A stretch of DNA of 64,000 bases from Mariniblastus fucicola (GTDB lineage: Bacteria; Planctomycetota; Planctomycetia; Pirellulales; Pirellulaceae), in contig NZ_CP042912.1 in assembly GCF_008087665.1 (NCBI RefSeq), positions 1-64,000 of the forward strand, written 5' to 3'. Within the stretch, counting starts at the first letter, position 1. Each line of letters opens with the position of its first letter. The position numbers and the translations under genes are program-made. The notes under the pieces were generated by a model that was not told the origin of the DNA, searched no databases, and worked only from the letters and a program-made list of their open reading frames with translations. Positions 9,709-35,368 of this stretch are shown in pieces.

Positions 9709-12162
9709 ATGCGCTCAAAATCAAACGGTACCAAAAGCAAACGCCGCGCCCGTTCGCAGAAATCAGCAATGAGCTACGGTGCTCTGGAAGCCAGAAACCT
9801 GCTGGCAACTTTGGTCGAATTCAACGCCGTTGACAGCCAAATCTCTGTCAACATGGACGCCAACAACGACATCGCCGTGATTGGCATCGCTGATAATGGA
9901 AACGTGACCGTCAACGGAAGTCAGGACCTTGATGGGAAAACTTCTGGGGTGCAATCCGTCGAAGCCGGTTCCTTGAAGCACATTTTCGTTTCAGGTGATG
10001 TGAATCGGACGGCTCAGGAATTTTCGTTCGTCAACGACTTCACACCAGAGCGAGCTTTGTACTCGGTTCAACTACAAAACGTCAGCCAGATCACGATCAA
10101 TGGTCAGTTGAACGTTCGCGAAAACTTCCTCGTATCCATGAACGGCCAGGGCGGTCGCATCGGTGACTCAACCAGCGGTCAACTGGTTGTTGGAGGCCTG
10201 ACAAAGATTGATGCCGGCGCCAATACAGTCGGTCTCAACAACGCAAACAACGACTTCAGCGAACTTTATGTCGGGACTTCTGGCAAACTTCACAACGCGG
10301 TCATCACAGACATCAACGATGTCATGCTAACCGGAGTTGAGACATCAGGGAACTTTACGCTGACAGCCGGTGGCGATGTTGAAGATGTTGCGAACGCAAA
10401 GATCGAAGTTGCGGAGGACGCATTCTTCACCGCCAAATCGATTACGCTTGGCGACCACGAAGGAGACAGTACCAACTTCTTCCGTTCATCGTTCAATGCA
10501 TCAGGCCATGTCGAAGTCCAGGAAGACTCCAACATGATCTTGATCGACAGTGAGGCCGGTTCAATGACGCTCCGCTCGGTCGGAGTCATTCAGGACGGAC
10601 TTCGAACAACGATCAACGTCAGCGGACTGGCTCAGTTCTTCGGCAACAATCGTGTTCGCATCGGCGAGGGTGGACTCGATACCTTCAACGCCGGATCGAT
10701 CCAGTTTCAGTCCAACGGGCACGTTCATATCTCGGAGAACAGTGACACGGTCATAACTGGCGACAACAGCGCATCGTCGCTGAACATCAAATCGTGGGGT
10801 CGCGTTGGCGATTTCGTAGGCACCACAATCAATGTTGCCAATGAAACAGGCCTGGAAGGGATCAGCGTCGTGCTTGGCGATTCCGCAACCGACGTCTTCA
10901 ACACCGGATCGATGTACTTTTGGACTTCTGAACTGTTCTCGGTCAACGAAGACTCCAACAGTCACATCATCGAAACCAAAAACCGCGCAGGTGACTTCCA
11001 GTTGCAATCCGCCGGATCGATTACCGATGCGGACGATTCCAGAATCACTGTTGATGGTGTCGCCAATTTCAAGGCCAACAATGTTAACGTCGGGGATTCG
11101 CAGGACGACTGGTTTGTAGCCGGTTCAGTAAGCTTCGAAACATCGGGCCAGTTCAAGCTTTCAGAGAACAGCGACTTGCAAATCGTTGGCGAAAACTCGG
11201 CTGCCAAGTCCGTGATCAACTCCAGCGGTAACATCACCAACGATGTGAACGCCAAAGTCGACGTACGAAATTCAGCAGCGTTCTTTGCGGATAACATTGT
11301 GCTTGGAAACCGAAGTGGCGACCAGTTCAACGCTGGCACGATCGGCTTCCGCACCGCTGACGACGCCAACGGGCTGGTTCAGATTGAAGAAGACAGTCAT
11401 ACCAACGTTGGCGGCAATAACGTCGCGAAAACACTGCAGATCGATTCTGCAGGCGACATTACCGATGGTCCAAAATCGATTATCAACGTCTCGGGAAACA
11501 CCCGTTTCACGACCGCCAACAATGGTCGAATCGTCGTTGGTGATTCCGGGTACATGAGTGATGGCACAAGATATGACGCCGCATTCGAAACACGAACGCT
11601 GACGGTACAGAGTGACGGAACGGGCAATGTTGTCGTCGAGGAAGACGGCGACATTGTGCTCAAGGGCGACAACCGTGCGAACTCAATGTCTCTTATGACT
11701 CTTGGAGCAGAAGGCAAAATTCTGGACACGCCAGAAACAACGCTGGCCGTGCGTTACAACCTGAACGTCGAAGGCAGCTTGATCAATCTTGGTACTGACG
11801 TGCTACCAAACGGTTCATCGACGGACCGGCTTGAGTTCGCATCGCTGACTTTCAATTCGACAGGCAATGTGAAACTTTCCGCGGACGATTCGTTCTTCCT
11901 CACTGGCAGCAGTACGACCGGAGGTTTCCTGACGCTGGAATCTGAAGGCGACATTCGCTCAACGAGCGGATCTGAGCTGCTCACCGAAGCTGGTGCCCAA
12001 TTCGATGGCATGGATATCCTGGTCGGCAACCTTGCCGATGACTGTTTCGATATCATCGACTCGTTCGAGGACGGTACCAAGCGACTGCTGGTCAATGGCG
12101 AAGGAATCGAAAACGTTCAACTCGGTTGCTCGGCTGGCGGCGATTCAGGCGTGGATTCATAG
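9709..12162 (+). CDS. Large repeat-built surface protein with LEPRxLL-type N-terminus
   Basis: 817 aa. The N-terminus is very basic (KSKRRARSQK) and contains ALEARNLLA, a variant of the LEPRxLLA motif found at the start of many large planctomycete surface proteins. From about residue 180 to 778 there are eight diverged tandem units of about 70-85 residues. Each has the pattern F-x-x-G-S-x-x-F, then an E-(D/N)-S turn, then S-x-G-x-I-x-D, then a V-x-G-D stretch. This layout resembles right-handed beta-helix adhesins. The protein is acidic, with a short Asp/Gly/Ser-rich C-terminal end and no visible membrane anchor, sorting motif or autotransporter barrel. Probably cell-surface or secreted; ligand unknown. 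A clear terminator follows. Confidence 0.78.
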   Translation: MRSKSNGTKSKRRARSQKSAMSYGALEARNLLATLVEFNAVDSQISVNMDANNDIAVIGIADNGNVTVNGSQDLDGKTSGVQSVEAGSLKHIFVSGDVNRTAQEFSFVNDFTPERALYSVQLQNVSQITINGQLNVRENFLVSMNGQGGRIGDSTSGQLVVGGLTKIDAGANTVGLNNANNDFSELYVGTSGKLHNAVITDINDVMLTGVETSGNFTLTAGGDVEDVANAKIEVAEDAFFTAKSITLGDHEGDSTNFFRSSFNASGHVEVQEDSNMILIDSEAGSMTLRSVGVIQDGLRTTINVSGLAQFFGNNRVRIGEGGLDTFNAGSIQFQSNGHVHISENSDTVITGDNSASSLNIKSWGRVGDFVGTTINVANETGLEGISVVLGDSATDVFNTGSMYFWTSELFSVNEDSNSHIIETKNRAGDFQLQSAGSITDADDSRITVDGVANFKANNVNVGDSQDDWFVAGSVSFETSGQFKLSENSDLQIVGENSAAKSVINSSGNITNDVNAKVDVRNSAAFFADNIVLGNRSGDQFNAGTIGFRTADDANGLVQIEEDSHTNVGGNNVAKTLQIDSAGDITDGPKSIINVSGNTRFTTANNGRIVVGDSGYMSDGTRYDAAFETRTLTVQSDGTGNVVVEEDGDIVLKGDNRANSMSLMTLGAEGKILDTPETTLAVRYNLNVEGSLINLGTDVLPNGSSTDRLEFASLTFNSTGNVKLSADDSFFLTGSSTTGGFLTLESEGDIRSTSGSELLTEAGAQFDGMDILVGNLADDCFDIIDSFEDGTKRLLVNGEGIENVQLGCSAGGDSGVDS

Positions 12163-12725: not shown

Positions 12726-14603
12726 GTGCAAGCCCGACTACTGATCCCCAAAATCAAAAAGCTGTACGACAAGTACATGGAGTACGACGCGGATCAGCTG
12801 AAGAAAGAAACGCTTGATCTGGGTTTCGAATCGCGGACGCACGGAAACATCGAAGCTCTGGTCGCAAGAGGATTTGCTCTGGTCCGCGCCGCTTCGATGC
12901 GGGAACTGCAGATGGCGCACTACGATGTGCAGTTGACCGGGGGATTGGCGATGTGCCGCGGGCACGTTGCCGAAATGAGAACGGGCGAAGGAAAGACTCT
13001 CACAGCAACGCTGCCAATGTTCGTTCGTGCTCTCGCCGGCGAAGGTGCCTTGCTCGCGACCAGCAACGACTACCTGGCCTATCGCGATGCGATGTGGATG
13101 AAGCCAGTCTACAATCTGCTCGGTCTGAGTATCGGCGTGATTCAAACGGAGATGTCACGCGAGCAACGTCGCGAATCCTACAAATGCGACATTACGTACG
13201 GCACGATGAAAGAGTTTGGTTTCGACTTTCTTCGAGACCATGCGGCTCGCCGTGAGCAACAGCAGCGAGATTTCTACTACGGCGGCGCATCCGGTGGAGT
13301 CGCCCAGTCGCCGATGGCGGTATCTGTTCATCGCAAACCTCACTTCATACTGATTGACGAAGCTGACAGTATCCTGATCGATGACGCGAGAACGCCGTTG
13401 ATCATTTCATCAGCCGGCGACGATTCCAGCCAGCAACAGGAGACCAGCCTCTATCAATGGTCGGCTGATTCGGCGCCGAAGTTCGAAGAGGATCTTCACT
13501 ACTGGTATGATCGCGAACGCCGCAAAGTTGACCTGACTCCGGAAGGAACGGCGCTGGTTCGGGAAACCGTGAAGCCACGCGATCTTGCGGGTATTGGGCT
13601 GTTGCAAATGTACGATTTCATCGAGCGAGCGATTCAGGTTTATCGTGACTACAAAACGGATCGAGACTATGTCGTGAGAGACGGTGAGATCGTGATCGTA
13701 GACGAAGCCACGGGTCGGATCTCGGAAGGTCGTCGTTGGAGTCGCGGCATCCATCAGGCGATCGAAGCCAAGGAACACGTCAAGGTTTCGGTCGATACGG
13801 CAACGCATGCCAAGATCACGGTGCAGTCTTTTGTCAGTCGCTTTCCGCACATGGCCGGGATGACAGGGACGGCGTGGACGTCGGTTCGCGAGTTCAAGAA
13901 AATCTACGGCATGGGTGTTTCAGTGATTCCAACGAATCGCAAGCCGCAACGAATAGAGTTGCCGATCAAATACGCACCGACCGAGGAAGAAAAGCTACAG
14001 CAGATTGCTGTCGACGTTAAAGAAATTCACGAACTCGGTCGCCCGATTTTGATTGGTACTCGATCGATCGCCAAATCGGAGATCGTATCGAACGTGCTGC
14101 GACAGATCGGCGTTCAACATGACGTGCTCAATGCCCGGCAGATTGAACGCGAAGCCGAGATCGTCGAAAACGCTGGCCAGAAAAGTCGTGTTACCGTCGC
14201 TACAAACATGGCGGGTCGAGGTACGGATATCAAAATCGATGACGAAGTACGCGAGCTTGGCGGACTTCATGTGATCGGCACCGAGATGCATGAATCGAGT
14301 CGAATCGATCAGCAACTTTTTGGGCGCTGTGGTCGACAGGGAGATCCGGGTTCGGTCCAGCTATATATATGTGCCGAAGACAAACTGTTAGAGTCCGCGT
14401 TCGGGAAACAGAAAGCCGATCGAATTCGCAAGACGGCAAAGATTCGCGGTCGCCGATATTGGATTCGGCTATTTGAAAAAGCACAGAACAAAGTCGAGAG
14501 CCAGCACTATCGCTCTCGCAAAATACTGATGTTCAACGAAAAACAGCTGGCGAAAAGCCAACGAGAAATGGGACTCGACCCAATTCTGGACAATTTTGAA
14601 TAA
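12726..14603 (+). CDS. SecA-like ATPase, short form
   Basis: 625 aa against about 850-950 for a housekeeping SecA. Nucleotide-binding motifs are intact: Walker A MRTGEGKT (about residue 84), DEAD box LIDEADSILIDDARTPLIIS (about 209-228) and the second-domain motif TNMAGRGTDIK. The preprotein cross-linking region is partly present. The protein stops soon after the second nucleotide-binding domain, with no helical wing or C-terminal zinc tail. The start is GTG (12726). Best read as an accessory or paralogous SecA motor rather than the main translocase, but only a genome search for a second full-length secA would settle that. It lies directly upstream of an exported lipoprotein gene; any substrate link is a guess. 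Confidence 0.85.
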   Translation: MQARLLIPKIKKLYDKYMEYDADQLKKETLDLGFESRTHGNIEALVARGFALVRAASMRELQMAHYDVQLTGGLAMCRGHVAEMRTGEGKTLTATLPMFVRALAGEGALLATSNDYLAYRDAMWMKPVYNLLGLSIGVIQTEMSREQRRESYKCDITYGTMKEFGFDFLRDHAARREQQQRDFYYGGASGGVAQSPMAVSVHRKPHFILIDEADSILIDDARTPLIISSAGDDSSQQQETSLYQWSADSAPKFEEDLHYWYDRERRKVDLTPEGTALVRETVKPRDLAGIGLLQMYDFIERAIQVYRDYKTDRDYVVRDGEIVIVDEATGRISEGRRWSRGIHQAIEAKEHVKVSVDTATHAKITVQSFVSRFPHMAGMTGTAWTSVREFKKIYGMGVSVIPTNRKPQRIELPIKYAPTEEEKLQQIAVDVKEIHELGRPILIGTRSIAKSEIVSNVLRQIGVQHDVLNARQIEREAEIVENAGQKSRVTVATNMAGRGTDIKIDDEVRELGGLHVIGTEMHESSRIDQQLFGRCGRQGDPGSVQLYICAEDKLLESAFGKQKADRIRKTAKIRGRRYWIRLFEKAQNKVESQHYRSRKILMFNEKQLAKSQREMGLDPILDNFE

Positions 14604-14739: not shown

Positions 14740-17271
14740 ATGTACTTGTACGATATAACTTTAAAAACGGCGTTGCTGTTATTGATCACGTTGCACGTAG
14801 GATGTAGCAAGCCACCGCCTCCGACACCCCCGCCGTTTGTTGATTTGTCGGATTCGCTAACCGGAGAAGAAAAGCGTATTGCGGAGCTGATCACCAGCGA
14901 AGACTTGCTGTTGGATCTGACGAAAGACCTCCAGTCGATTGCAAGCCAGCTTCAAGGCGATGACGAATCGGTAGATCATTTTGCTACGCTGGACCATCTC
15001 ACAGGTATCGCTGGCAGCCCGTCCTTCCATACCGATCAAAACATGCCTTCTCATGTTCAGGTCGCAAGCCTCAGCGTGGCTCAATTGCCGATTGGAAGTT
15101 CTCCGTGGAGTGCTATCTCCGACATGGGCGTAAAATGGTCGACGTTGAAGTTCGGTGTGCTCGATGCCGAGTTTTCCAATGAGGAACGGACCGAGTTTAC
15201 GCTCGAAACCAAATCGGAAGCTCGTGGCTCAGGCAATGATGAACTTTACGGGCTCAAAGGTCATCAGCAACTGGTTTTTGCCTGGAAGAAAGATAGCTGG
15301 CGATTGTCAGAATGGATTCAGGAAGACTTGAAGTTGATGAAGTCTTCTCATCAACTGTTTCGCGACGTGCTTCCAGATGTGATCTCCGACCCGGAAGCGC
15401 TTGATAAAGCCACCCGCAGCCACAAAGATGAAATCATTATCGACTGGTCGAAGCGGGGTCAAATCAAGCTTCCGCGGATGGACGTCACCAGTTGGGCATG
15501 GATCGGATCGAATCATATTTTCCCATCCGTGTCAGCGGTGGACTACAACACCGACGGCTACGATGACCTGTTCCTGACGTCACGTTGGGGACCGACTCAA
15601 ATGTTGAAGAACAACGGGGACGGGACTTTCGATGATGTGACCGAAGAAGTCGGGCTGAGCGAACCGTACATGGTGAACACAGTGCTGTTCGTCGATCTGG
15701 ACAACGATGGCGACAAAGACGCTTTCATCGGTCGTCCGATGGAGAAAGCCAGGTATATGCGAAACGACGACGGCAAGTTCGTCGATGTCACTGAAAGCCA
15801 CTCGGACCTGGGCGATCAATACTTTGTCAGCAGTATCACGGCCTCAGACGTAAACCGCGACGGTCTGCTGGATCTGTACCTGACCAGTTACGTGCCGCTG
15901 CAAAGTAAAACCGTTCGATTTGAGGATCGCTTTCTGACAGAAGAAGAGCGGGAGCAATACAACCTGCGAGTCGCCACAACTGACTTTTGGGTTGAGATGT
16001 CGGGTGCATCAAACGTGTTGCTGATGAATCGTGGCGGTGGAAAACTCGAACGCGTCCCGTACGACAATTTGCTGTCTCAATGGCGTCGCTCGTTTCAGGC
16101 CACGTGGGCTGACTACGACAACGATGGAGACGACGACCTGTATGTCTGCACCGATTTTGCGCCCAATGCGTTGTTAAGAAACGACACTCCCAAAGGTGCC
16201 GCACAACCGGTGTTTAGTGCTGCCGATGATGTGTTTCCCAAAGACCTGCAGGGATTTTCCATGGGTGGATCGTGGGGAGACTATGACTCTGATGGTGACC
16301 TCGATTTGTACGTATCGAATATGTACTCCAAAGCCGGTCGTAGGATACTTTCCCGGTTGGGAACCGAGGACGGGCGACTGATCGCGTCAGCGGCCGGAAA
16401 CTTTCTGTTCGAGAATGAAGATGGCCGATTCTCTCAGGTCGCCGGTGACGGAAAACAGGCTGTCGATAAAGTTGGCTGGTCGTGGGGAGGTCAATGGTCG
16501 GACTTTGATAACGATGGAGACCTGGATCTTTATGTTCCCAGTGGATATCACACGGCGCCGAAAGAGATTGCCGGTGTTGATACGTGAAGTTGCCTCTGGC
16601 GTACGGTCGTACGCAAAGACATGACTCAAACAGACGGCTTTCGCGAAGCCGAGGTGTGGAAAAAACAAAGGTATACACCGAAGCTAAAAGTAGAAAACAA
16701 GATCGATCCGCTAACGGGCAAAAGGCCGGACTTCAACTTCACCAGCAACTCGCTCAGCGGCAACGAACGCAACCGAATGTTCCTGCAGCATGATCAAGGG
16801 AACTTTAGCGACGTTTCGCTTGTCAGCGGTGCCGACGATACCGCTGACGGACGCTCCTTCGCGTTGCTTGATTTCGATCGCGATGGCTGGACAGATATCG
16901 CCATGATGGGTCTCAACGCGCCCCGATTCCGGCTTTATCGCAACGAAATTGGCGATCTCTATCCGGATCGAAAAGCGTATCGATTCCGCCTGGTCGGAGG
17001 ACTTACCGGTTCCGAAGCTTCGACGGATCAACTCAGTAACCGTGACGCAATCGGTGCAAAGGTTAAAATCACCTTTAGTTCCGGGCGCGTCTACAGCCTC
17101 CACAAACAGGCCGGCGAAGGGTTTGCGAGTCAGAACTCGGAGGTGCTTTCCATTGGTGTCAGGCCGGGCGAAGAAGTTGAAAAACTGGAAGTCAGTTGGC
17201 CGGGTGGAACCAAAACGGAAGTTGGCAAAATCGACATGTCTGGCATCCAGGTCATTCAAGAGATCGATTAA
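14740..17271 (+). CDS. FG-GAP/ASPIC-UnbV lipoprotein, probable selenoprotein (TGA at 16585 read as Sec)
   Basis: One frame of 843 residues interrupted by a single in-frame TGA at 16585-16587 (residue 616). Residues 1-22 form a lipoprotein signal with lipobox LHVGC (Cys 22), followed by a proline-rich spacer. From about residue 265 there are repeated calcium-loop FG-GAP/VCBS motifs (DYNTDGYDDL, DLDNDGDKDA, DVNRDGLLDL, DYDNDGDDDL, DYDSDGDLDL, DFDNDGDLDL), and one more after the TGA (DFDRDGWTDI). The C-terminus is an ASPIC/UnbV domain (SNRDAIGAKVKITFSSGR, VSWPGG). The frame is open and family-like on both sides, and reads AGVDT-U-SCLWRTVV across the stop. A SECIS-like hairpin follows at the right spacing. 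The alternatives are a nonsense mutation or a sequencing error, giving separate pieces of 615 and 216 aa. Extracytoplasmic; the role is unknown, possibly redox through Sec616-Ser-Cys618. Confidence 0.75.
16585..16614 (+). promoter_or_regulatory. Putative bacterial SECIS element after in-frame TGA
   Basis: After TGA (16585-16587) the perfect stem GCGTAC (16599-16604) / GTACGC (16609-16614) closes a GGTC tetraloop at 16605-16608. Seventeen bases separate the TGA from the loop. The bacterial SECIS model wants an apical loop 16-37 bases from the UGA with a G in the first two loop positions, and both hold. Escherichia coli fdhF uses the same GGUC loop. An additional TCT/AGA pairing may extend the lower stem. 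Confidence 0.72.
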
Positions 17272-17322: not shown

Positions 17323-18198
17323 ATGGCAAAAATTCTGATAGTCGAAGATTCGCCCGTCGATCAGCTCTTGATCAAGAGGCTGCTGGTGCGGCCCGATTGG
17401 GTTTCGCAAATCGCCAGCAACGGAAAAGAAGCTCTCGAGCTCATTGGAAAACTCCGTCCGGACATCGTTGTGACCGATCTACAGATGCCGGTGATGGACG
17501 GGCTGGAACTGGTGAAAGCCGTGCGTGAGAACGACGCCGGATTACCGATCGTATTGGTTACCGCCAAGGGTTCTGAGCAAACAGCGGTTGACGCACTTCG
17601 CGATGGAGCAACTTCCTATTCGCCAAAATCAAAACTCAGTACCGATCTTGTTTCCACGATCGAACAGGTTCTGGAAATGTCGCGGCGAATGCGATATTCG
17701 CATGATTCGGAATTCTTTCCCACGCCGAAATCACACGCCGTTGTGCTGAAAAACGATTTGAAACTGATCGGCCCGACGATCGAAAACATGCAATCGCAAC
17801 TTCCGGCCTGGAGCGATCGCGACCGGTTACAGATCGGCATGGCGCTCGATGAAGCACTCGTCAACGCGATGCATCACGGCAATCTGGAAGTCGATTCGAC
17901 CATGCGTGAGGGTGACGAAACGAATTACTACGAGTTGATCCGCGTTCGCCAGGGCAAGCCACCGTGGAACGACCGAAAGGTCCGCGTCGAGTTCGAGTTT
18001 TCCGACCAGCATATTTGCATTCAGGTATCCGACGAAGGCAGCGGCTTCGATCCGGCAACGATTCCCGACCCGCGAACTCCCGAAAATTTGCATCGCGTTT
18101 GTGGACGCGGCCTGTTCTTGATTCGCAACTTTATGGATCAGGTTGCTCACAACGCGACCGGCAATCAGATCACGATGACCAAGCTGCGTGAAAAATAG
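17323..18198 (+). CDS. Response regulator receiver fused to HATPase (anti-sigma-type kinase)
   Basis: 291 aa. The N-terminal receiver domain (residues 1-120) has the acidic pocket (LIVEDS), the phospho-acceptor Asp in VVTDLQMPVMDGL, the switch Thr in VLVTAKG and the conserved Lys in SPKSK. The C-terminal half is an RsbW-like GHKL ATPase, with ALDEALVNAMHHGN (N box) and VSDEGSGFDP (G1 box), then GRGLFLIRNFMD. Such fusions usually control partner-switching modules with anti-anti-sigma STAS proteins. No STAS or PP2C gene is adjacent, so the partner is unknown. It lies 51 bases past the FG-GAP/ASPIC gene and could be co-transcribed with it. Soluble. Confidence 0.87.
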   Translation: MAKILIVEDSPVDQLLIKRLLVRPDWVSQIASNGKEALELIGKLRPDIVVTDLQMPVMDGLELVKAVRENDAGLPIVLVTAKGSEQTAVDALRDGATSYSPKSKLSTDLVSTIEQVLEMSRRMRYSHDSEFFPTPKSHAVVLKNDLKLIGPTIENMQSQLPAWSDRDRLQIGMALDEALVNAMHHGNLEVDSTMREGDETNYYELIRVRQGKPPWNDRKVRVEFEFSDQHICIQVSDEGSGFDPATIPDPRTPENLHRVCGRGLFLIRNFMDQVAHNATGNQITMTKLREK

Positions 18199-34108: not shown

Positions 34109-35368
34109 ATGCCAAACATGAACCTGCAATCACAAGACCCGGAAATCTTTGACCTGATCCAAGCCGAAGCCGTGCGGCAGCAGGACGGCCTGGAAATGAT
34201 CGCCAGCGAAAACTACACCAGCGTGGCCATCATGGAAGCCGCGGGAAGCGTGCTGACCAACAAGTATGCCGAGGGCTATCCGGGACGTCGCTACTACGGC
34301 GGGTGTGAGCATGTTGATGTGCTGGAGAATGTGGCTCGCAATCGCGCGAAAGAACTCTTCGGCGCAGAAGCCGCAAACGTGCAACCGAACTCCGGTTCCC
34401 AGGCCAACCAGGCGGTCTACCTCGCGGCCCTCGATGTTGGCGACACCGTGCTTGGCCTGGACCTGGCTCATGGAGGCCATCTGACGCACGGCATGCGTTT
34501 GAACCTTTCGGGAAAGCTCTACAACTTCATTAACTACGGTGTCAAGAAAGACGACCATCGAATCGATTTCGATCAGGTTGCGGCGTTGGCCAAAGAGCAC
34601 AAGCCAAAGATGATCGTGGCCGGCGCAAGTGCTTACCCGCGAGAGATTCCCCACGAGAAGTTCCGCGAAATCGCTGACGATGTCGGTGCACTTTTGTTTG
34701 TCGACATGGCTCACTATTCCGGACTGGTAGCCGGCGGAGTTCACAACAGCCCGGTTCCGCATGCCGATTTCGTGACTTCGACAACGCACAAGACGCTTCG
34801 CGGTCCGCGATCGGGAATGATTTTGTGTAAGAAGCCGTGGATCAAAAAAATCAACTCTGCGGTTTTCCCGGGCATGCAAGGTGGCCCACTGATGCACATC
34901 GTGGCAGGCAAAGCGGTTTGCTATGGCGAGTGTCTCAAACCGGAGTTCAAAACCTACGCCCAGAACATTGTCGACAACTCAAAAGCGCTTGCCGAAACGC
35001 TAATGGCCGGCGGTTTGACGCTCGTCAGCGGTGGAACAGACAATCATCTGTGCCTGGTCGATGTCGCGACGTCGCTCGATCTTGGCGGGAAAGACGCAGA
35101 AGAGGCCTTGGGGCGTTGCGAAATTACAGTCAACAAAAACATGATCCCGTTTGACCCACGAACTCCGATGGACCCAAGCGGTGTGCGAATTGGAACTCCG
35201 GCGTTGACGACTCGCGGGATGGGCGTCGATCAGATGAAACAGATCGGTCAGTGGATCGTGGAAGCGCTTAAAAACGCGAACGACGAATCGGTTCACGCCT
35301 CGATCAAGAGCGGCGTCAAGGAAATGTGCGACAGCTTCCCGGTACCCGCGGCTTCGCAACTGGTTTAG
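34109..35368 (+). CDS. glyA: Serine hydroxymethyltransferase
   Basis: 419 aa PLP enzyme that interconverts serine and glycine and supplies one-carbon units to tetrahydrofolate. Starting at this ATG the length matches the family; the upstream GTG at 34031 would add 26 unlikely residues. Recognisable motifs are [12 protein letters not shown] at the N-terminus, the tetrahydrofolate/active-site region [15 protein letters not shown], and the PLP-binding lysine in [14 protein letters not shown]. Cytoplasmic, housekeeping. The region just upstream has no identifiable glycine riboswitch. Confidence 0.97.

Follow-up and report, generated by a model that had tools for sequence, protein, structure and literature searches.

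An FG-GAP/ASPIC gene of Mariniblastus fucicola predicted to encode a selenoprotein of an apparently uncatalogued family

The best known SECIS elements are those of the formate dehydrogenases of Escherichia coli. To our knowledge, no biochemical function has been described for the exported FG-GAP/ASPIC proteins. According to the accessible portion of PMC13188914, the model of a bacterial SECIS comprises a loop of 3–9 nt, a stem of 4–16 bp, a G in the first two loop positions, a spacing of 16–37 nt and a minimum free energy of −7.5 kcal/mol or lower. The accessible portion of a 2025 paper (PMC12013277) states that Cys homologues now appear to exist for every known selenoprotein. Methods of selenoprotein discovery lean largely on such homologues, and the usual Cys-based searches would miss the FG-GAP/ASPIC family described here. 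No report of this family was found in the accessible literature on selenoproteins with ASPIC, UnbV, FG-GAP or CRTAC1; an earlier mention may be present in the supplement of PMC4807772, which, judging from the accessible part of that paper on planctomycetes, lists selenoprotein candidates. The family is not named in the accessible portions of PMC12013277, PMC9312934 and PMC8318568, and that of PMC3909097 (on Poribacteria) mentions ASPIC domains and no selenium. In addition, a scan of the 27 aligned members and four others gave no NCBIfam model above its cut-off.

The gene is located in the window, which is the whole stretch of 64,000 nucleotides that was analysed (contig NZ_CP042912.1 of M. fucicola, assembly GCF_008087665.1, positions 1 to 64,000 of the forward strand). 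It forms a single frame of 844 codons (843 residues and a stop), and its sole internal stop is a TGA followed by codons for Ser and Cys. Re-reading of the frame agreed with a preliminary description of this DNA, in which a lone TGA splits an otherwise open frame and the ASPIC domain continues in the same frame beyond it. In the Pfam analysis, FG-GAP repeats and, past the TGA, an UnbV_ASPIC domain exceeded the curated cut-offs. The features of the locus are collected in Table 1.

Table 1. Coordinates of the features of the selenoprotein gene in the window
Feature	Position	Strand	Basis
Selenoprotein frame, FG-GAP/ASPIC (CRTAC1-like) probable lipoprotein	14740..17271	+	Frame reading, Pfam, homologues
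N-terminal signal sequence to Cys22, probable lipoprotein signal with imperfect lipobox HVGC	14740..14805	+	Sequence read by eye
Top-scoring FG-GAP_3 stretch, residues 268–329, one of six in the protein	15541..15726	+	Pfam
In-frame TGA, predicted selenocysteine 616	16585..16587	+	Aligned site is TGA in 113 of the 130 homologous frames
SECIS-type hairpin, 6-bp stem, apical loop GGTC (16605–16608), loop 17 nt past the TGA	16599..16614	+	Folding, conservation
UnbV_ASPIC domain, residues 770–831, in frame past the TGA	17047..17232	+	Pfam

The M. fucicola genome contains a second TGA-bearing copy (4045392–4047497) and five more ASPIC genes without the TGA motif. The lipobox of the second copy was read by eye as LAGC. 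This sequence and the imperfect HVGC of the window protein may be parts of lipoprotein signals, and the window protein is probably exported as a lipoprotein. Directly upstream of the gene there is an ORF for a SecA-like ATPase of 625 residues (12726–14603, +), which is shorter than a full SecA and may be a second SecA. Directly downstream, a response regulator receiver is fused to a HATPase_c_2 domain (17323–18198, +), and an ORF of 817 residues with DUF5649 repeats is located at 9709–12162 (+). No constant gene partner was found among the flanking ORFs: 100 were collected from part of the loci, and no Pfam family occurred in more than five of the 74 that were scanned.

Relatives of the gene were searched for in 60 genomes (that of M. 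fucicola and 59 relatives) at E ≤ 1e-40. A match was obtained in 32 genomes, and among the matches listed, every one covering residue 616 had one TGA; the five listed without a stop do not reach that residue. A scan of GTDB contigs, in which the best 80 of 253 relatives were taken, yielded 78 loci. The record titles of the homologue loci include Planctomycetota, Verrucomicrobiota, Myxococcota and Acidobacteriota. The site was spanned by 130 homologous frames, some of them duplicates, in which it was occupied by TGA in 113 and by Glu in 17 (13 GAA and 4 GAG). In addition, 392 Planctomycetota genomes drawn evenly from the phylum were searched at E ≤ 1e-18, with up to nine candidates scored per genome, and at least 93 of them had a match. 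By hand count, 134 (89%) of the 150 matches listed carried an in-frame TGA, one of them three, and the site residues of the other 16, all of which were fetched, were E (5), N (3), A (3), R (3), D (1) and H (1). The TGA was present at the site in all 30 loci taken from this search, one of which is the window.

Glu was thus the commonest non-Sec residue in both samples (17/17 and 5/16). No Cys was observed at the Sec site among the 130 frames, the aligned loci of a second subfamily and the 16 listed matches without TGA; since up to nine candidates were scored per genome, distant Cys forms could exist. One Cys tallied in the second subfamily turned out to lie in another repeat. A single base change turns TGA into a Cys codon and at least two are needed for Glu, a difference that points to selection against Cys. 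Of the two residues that the preliminary description had proposed to look for at position 616 of homologues, the predicted Sec was found and Cys was not, its place being taken by Glu and others.

A tree of 61 rows was constructed with the site masked, for which the Sec rows were reduced at a threshold of 70% identity around the site and 16 of the 17 Glu frames were used. The Glu rows formed one group (100/99) nested within the Sec rows, and the neighbour of this group was a Sec-bearing sequence of Verrucomicrobiales. With the root at the midpoint, this nesting suggests that the direction of the change was from Sec to Glu. Glu may have replaced Sec more than once. In the second subfamily, the frames are approximately 800 to 1,600 residues long and the TGA is within the motif DLUSFFWRQVV. 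Five of its loci (L205, L206, L207, L216 and L218) have Glu at the Sec site, perhaps as independent replacements of Sec. The non-Sec residues of this subfamily overall were E, D, N, H, R, A, Q, G or V, with no Cys seen among the loci listed; four loci unaligned at the site (L150, L152, L153 and L172) were left out of this count. The M. fucicola genome itself encodes a member of this subfamily, a giant FG-GAP/ASPIC protein of 1400 residues (L143, C1:2123722–2127921) with Gln in place of Sec; within the genus, its relatives carry Gln, Gly, Glu, Asp or Val at this position. In a sample from the phylum of the Verrucomicrobiales genome G093, the motif was present in one of 288 genomes, namely G093 itself, which has six TGA copies. 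This result warns that the family is patchy in that phylum; it was not taken as the distribution, since many loci of the GTDB scan have Verrucomicrobiota titles.

The hairpin following the TGA consists of a stem of GCGTAC (16599–16604) and GTACGC (16609–16614), and 11 bases separate the TGA from the stem. Its geometry, which the preliminary description had recognized as that of a bacterial SECIS with a perfect 6-bp stem, is within the model given in the accessible portion of PMC13188914. The predicted energy was −10.2 kcal/mol for a 36-nt stretch surrounding it and −7.4 kcal/mol for the bare hairpin, the latter being just short of the limit of that model. An Rfam scan of the gene gave no relevant match.

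The conservation of the hairpin, proposed earlier as a check, was apparent in the loop G, the stem pairing and the folding energy. Among 112 distinct downstream segments (96 TGA and 16 Glu; some frames are the same gene from two sources), the second loop base, which is the first base of codon +7, was G in 96/96 TGA segments and A in 16/16 Glu segments. The base preceding it in the TGA segments was G in 81, A in 13 and C in 2. In the 80 distinct TGA segments of the short subfamily, 424 of 480 stem cells pair, compared with at most 317 in six slid registers, and the loops were GGTC (61), AGCA (9), GGCC (6), AGCG (3) and GGCA (1). The third-base pair 18–27 was pairable in 69 of these 80 members with five pair types (C-G 55, T-G 6, T-A 5, A-T 2 and G-T 1) and in 8 of 15 Glu members, and 17 of the 80 had a T-T mismatch at one stem pair. 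Over the whole stem, the Glu members pair at 74 of 90 cells, so that part of the stem pairing follows from the peptide. When the energies were compared with a synonymous null, for which codons were drawn from the usage of each gene and related sequences were counted as separate, the mean z was −1.63 for 97 TGA and −0.66 for 16 Glu segments (p = 1.7e-4 between the sets); the Glu set was also somewhat below the null (p = 0.012). A SECIS-like hairpin was defined by an uninterrupted stem of at least 4 bp, a loop of 3–9 nt, G in the first two positions, a spacing of 16–37 nt and an energy of −5 kcal/mol or lower, which is looser than the −7.5 kcal/mol published (PMC13188914, accessible portion). 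With related sequences again counted as separate, such a hairpin was present in 65 of 95 TGA members, where 31.2 were expected, and absent from the remaining 30; of 15 Glu members, one had it, against an expectation of 2.4. The hairpin is conserved beyond the synonymous-codon expectation in TGA members.

The sel genes, whose presence in the genome had also been proposed as a check, were all found. The genome of M. fucicola, a single contig of 6.57 Mb, contains selA (462.5 bits), selB (355.7 bits), selD (265.1 bits) and tRNA-Sec (selC; 70.1 bits, likewise called tRNA-SeC by ARAGORN) at loci far apart from one another. In the window, a weak match to the SelA model at 34643–34858 (+), with 19.5 bits and thus under the cut-off, probably belongs to another PLP enzyme and not to selA. 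In the 60 genomes, a tRNA-Sec of at least 60 bits was present in 28 of the 31 with a TGA homologue and in 12 of the 29 others (both 28, TGA only 3, tRNA only 12 and neither 17; Fisher p = 6e-5, with relatedness uncorrected and homologues weaker than E 1e-40 scored as absent). In a survey of 49 genomes covering 50 of 52 chosen loci, selB exceeded the cut-off in 28 of the 33 genomes with TGA members and in 11 of the 16 with Glu members. The absence of a selB match in 5/33 TGA genomes and of a strong tRNA-Sec in 3/31, including G039 (94% complete), is likely due to genome incompleteness. The occurrence of selB in 11 of the 16 Glu genomes indicates that Glu is not simply the result of loss of the machinery; the Glu members are often in genomes that still read Sec.

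Among 38 diverse sequences, Asp at −2, Ser at +1 and Trp at +4 relative to the Sec site were invariant and Arg at +5 was nearly so; the same degree of conservation was seen farther on for Gly and Glu in an SG-x-E-x-N motif and for a D...D-x-R motif. Ser was at +1 in 85/85 distinct contexts, and three giant members outside this set (L154, L156 and L157) have Thr. The Sec616-Ser-Cys618 arrangement pointed out in the preliminary description is present in the window protein and is not general: Cys was at +2 in 50 of the 85 contexts, that of the window protein included, and another residue in 35. The variable +2 position ruled out Sec-Ser-Cys as a general redox motif. When the window protein was modelled together with 26 relatives by AlphaFold2 (pLDDT 87.8, pTM 0.90), the predicted fold was an FG-GAP propeller like that of CRTAC1, in which Sec, modelled as Cys, is model residue 595, the first residue of a helix (595–604).

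The gene very probably encodes a genuine selenoprotein of a large, apparently uncatalogued family, a probably exported propeller whose UGA is predicted to be decoded via SelB and the hairpin. SelB with Sec-tRNA would read the UGA, assisted by the hairpin that closely follows it, and the ribosome would insert Sec616 and continue through the ASPIC domain. The product would then be exported as a probable lipoprotein and fold as a CRTAC1-like FG-GAP propeller, with Sec predicted at the start of a helix in the conserved setting described above. If the TGA were instead an ordinary stop, the gene would specify a truncated protein of 615 residues or be a pseudogene, in keeping with a standard ORF listing, in which the frame ends at 16587 and a second ORF begins at 16621. 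This is very improbable, because 113 of 130 homologous frames share the TGA and stay open after it, the ASPIC domain and several invariant residues are encoded past this codon, and the hairpin exceeds the synonymous null. The identical TGA in so many frames also ruled out a pseudogene, a sequencing error and a frameshift, the last of which the preliminary description had already dismissed, and upheld its view that the TGA and hairpin were unlikely to coincide by chance. There is likewise scant likelihood that a near-cognate tRNA reads the UGA independently of Sec, for example as Trp. The three of 31 TGA genomes without a strong tRNA-Sec would fit such readthrough, the identity of the residue as Sec being a prediction, but the TGA homologue is associated with tRNA-Sec, TGA members retain the loop G, which Glu members have lost, and no Trp occurs at the site among the resolved non-TGA members. 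The selenoprotein reading is strongly supported and is about as firm as sequence alone allows.

The chemical role of Sec is a separate question, which was considered from conservation. Sec might act, we tentatively propose, as an anionic selenolate that binds a metal or a substrate or serves as a nucleophile, and not as half of a Cys/Sec redox pair. That Sec is a conventional redox centre of the peroxidase or disulfide-reductase kind, working with Cys618 or an outside thiol, appears rather less likely, yet is a real contender; this alternative bears on the role alone and does not conflict with the insertion of Sec. Many selenoproteins are homologues of thiol oxidoreductases or carry redox motifs (PMC13188914, accessible portion), and the window protein is among the contexts with Cys at +2, so that a Sec-Cys pair is possible in its own clade. 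On the other hand, 35 of the 85 contexts are without the +2 Cys, every Cys column apart from that of Sec itself holds at most 14 in an alignment of 27 sequences, and the clade in which Glu, not Cys, replaces Sec has retained the other motif residues.

The largest bacterial selenoprotein gene sets given in the accessible portion of PMC13188914 number 57 and 63. In one draft genome (G031; 8.3 Mb, 95% complete), to which loci L037, L162 and L171 belong, 24 of 44 matched FG-GAP/ASPIC stretches bore a TGA, and the corresponding values were 10/13 in G057, 5/8 in G039 and 7/7 in both G017 and G018; these counts refer to a TGA anywhere in the matched stretch, the Sec site itself having been inspected in some. 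The pattern of Sec, Glu and no Cys is the most surprising part of these results, and the family departs from the apparent rule, stated in the accessible portion of PMC12013277, that all known selenoproteins have Cys homologues. It could be, although we would not yet lean on it, that the family is the first widespread group of selenoproteins to be devoid of Cys counterparts, in which a strongly acidic selenolate takes the part of a carboxylate, as ligand or nucleophile of an exported propeller enzyme, a role that Glu can fill and a thiol cannot; much of the planctomycete selenoproteome, as exemplified by 24 paralogues in one genome, would then be hidden from searches for Cys/TGA pairs. A family present in at least 93 of 392 genomes of the phylum with Glu and no Cys would show that the Cys filter hides families, and selenium would be brought to exported FG-GAP/ASPIC proteins. 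Sec without a Cys counterpart raises the question of what selenium achieves at this site that is beyond sulfur, and the natural Sec/Glu pair offers a clean test.

The locus resembles bacterial SelB/SECIS selenoproteins in its in-frame UGA, in a hairpin with a loop G at 16–37 nt and in the accompanying sel genes (PMC13188914, accessible portion). It differs from the catalogued bacterial selenoproteins in that Table 1 of the same source, as far as accessible, contains no FG-GAP/ASPIC family, and in that no Cys homologue was seen, the product is probably an exported propeller and 24 TGA-bearing paralogues occur in G031. The other ASPIC/FG-GAP proteins of M. fucicola share its domains but are without the TGA motif, L143 having Gln. 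Aldos-2-ulose dehydratase (PDB 4a7y), the title of whose entry mentions an active-site metal, was the second structural match to the model (E = 3.2e-7); the resemblance is weak (TM approximately 0.3, rmsd 14) and is no more than a lead for an enzymatic role. The top Foldseek match was CRTAC1 (cartilage acidic protein 1, PDB 9etn; E = 3.1e-21, TM by target 0.71). Although the identity to 9etn is 13% and the profile-matched stretches omit the Sec helix, both the FG-GAP and the ASPIC parts of CRTAC1 are matched by profile.
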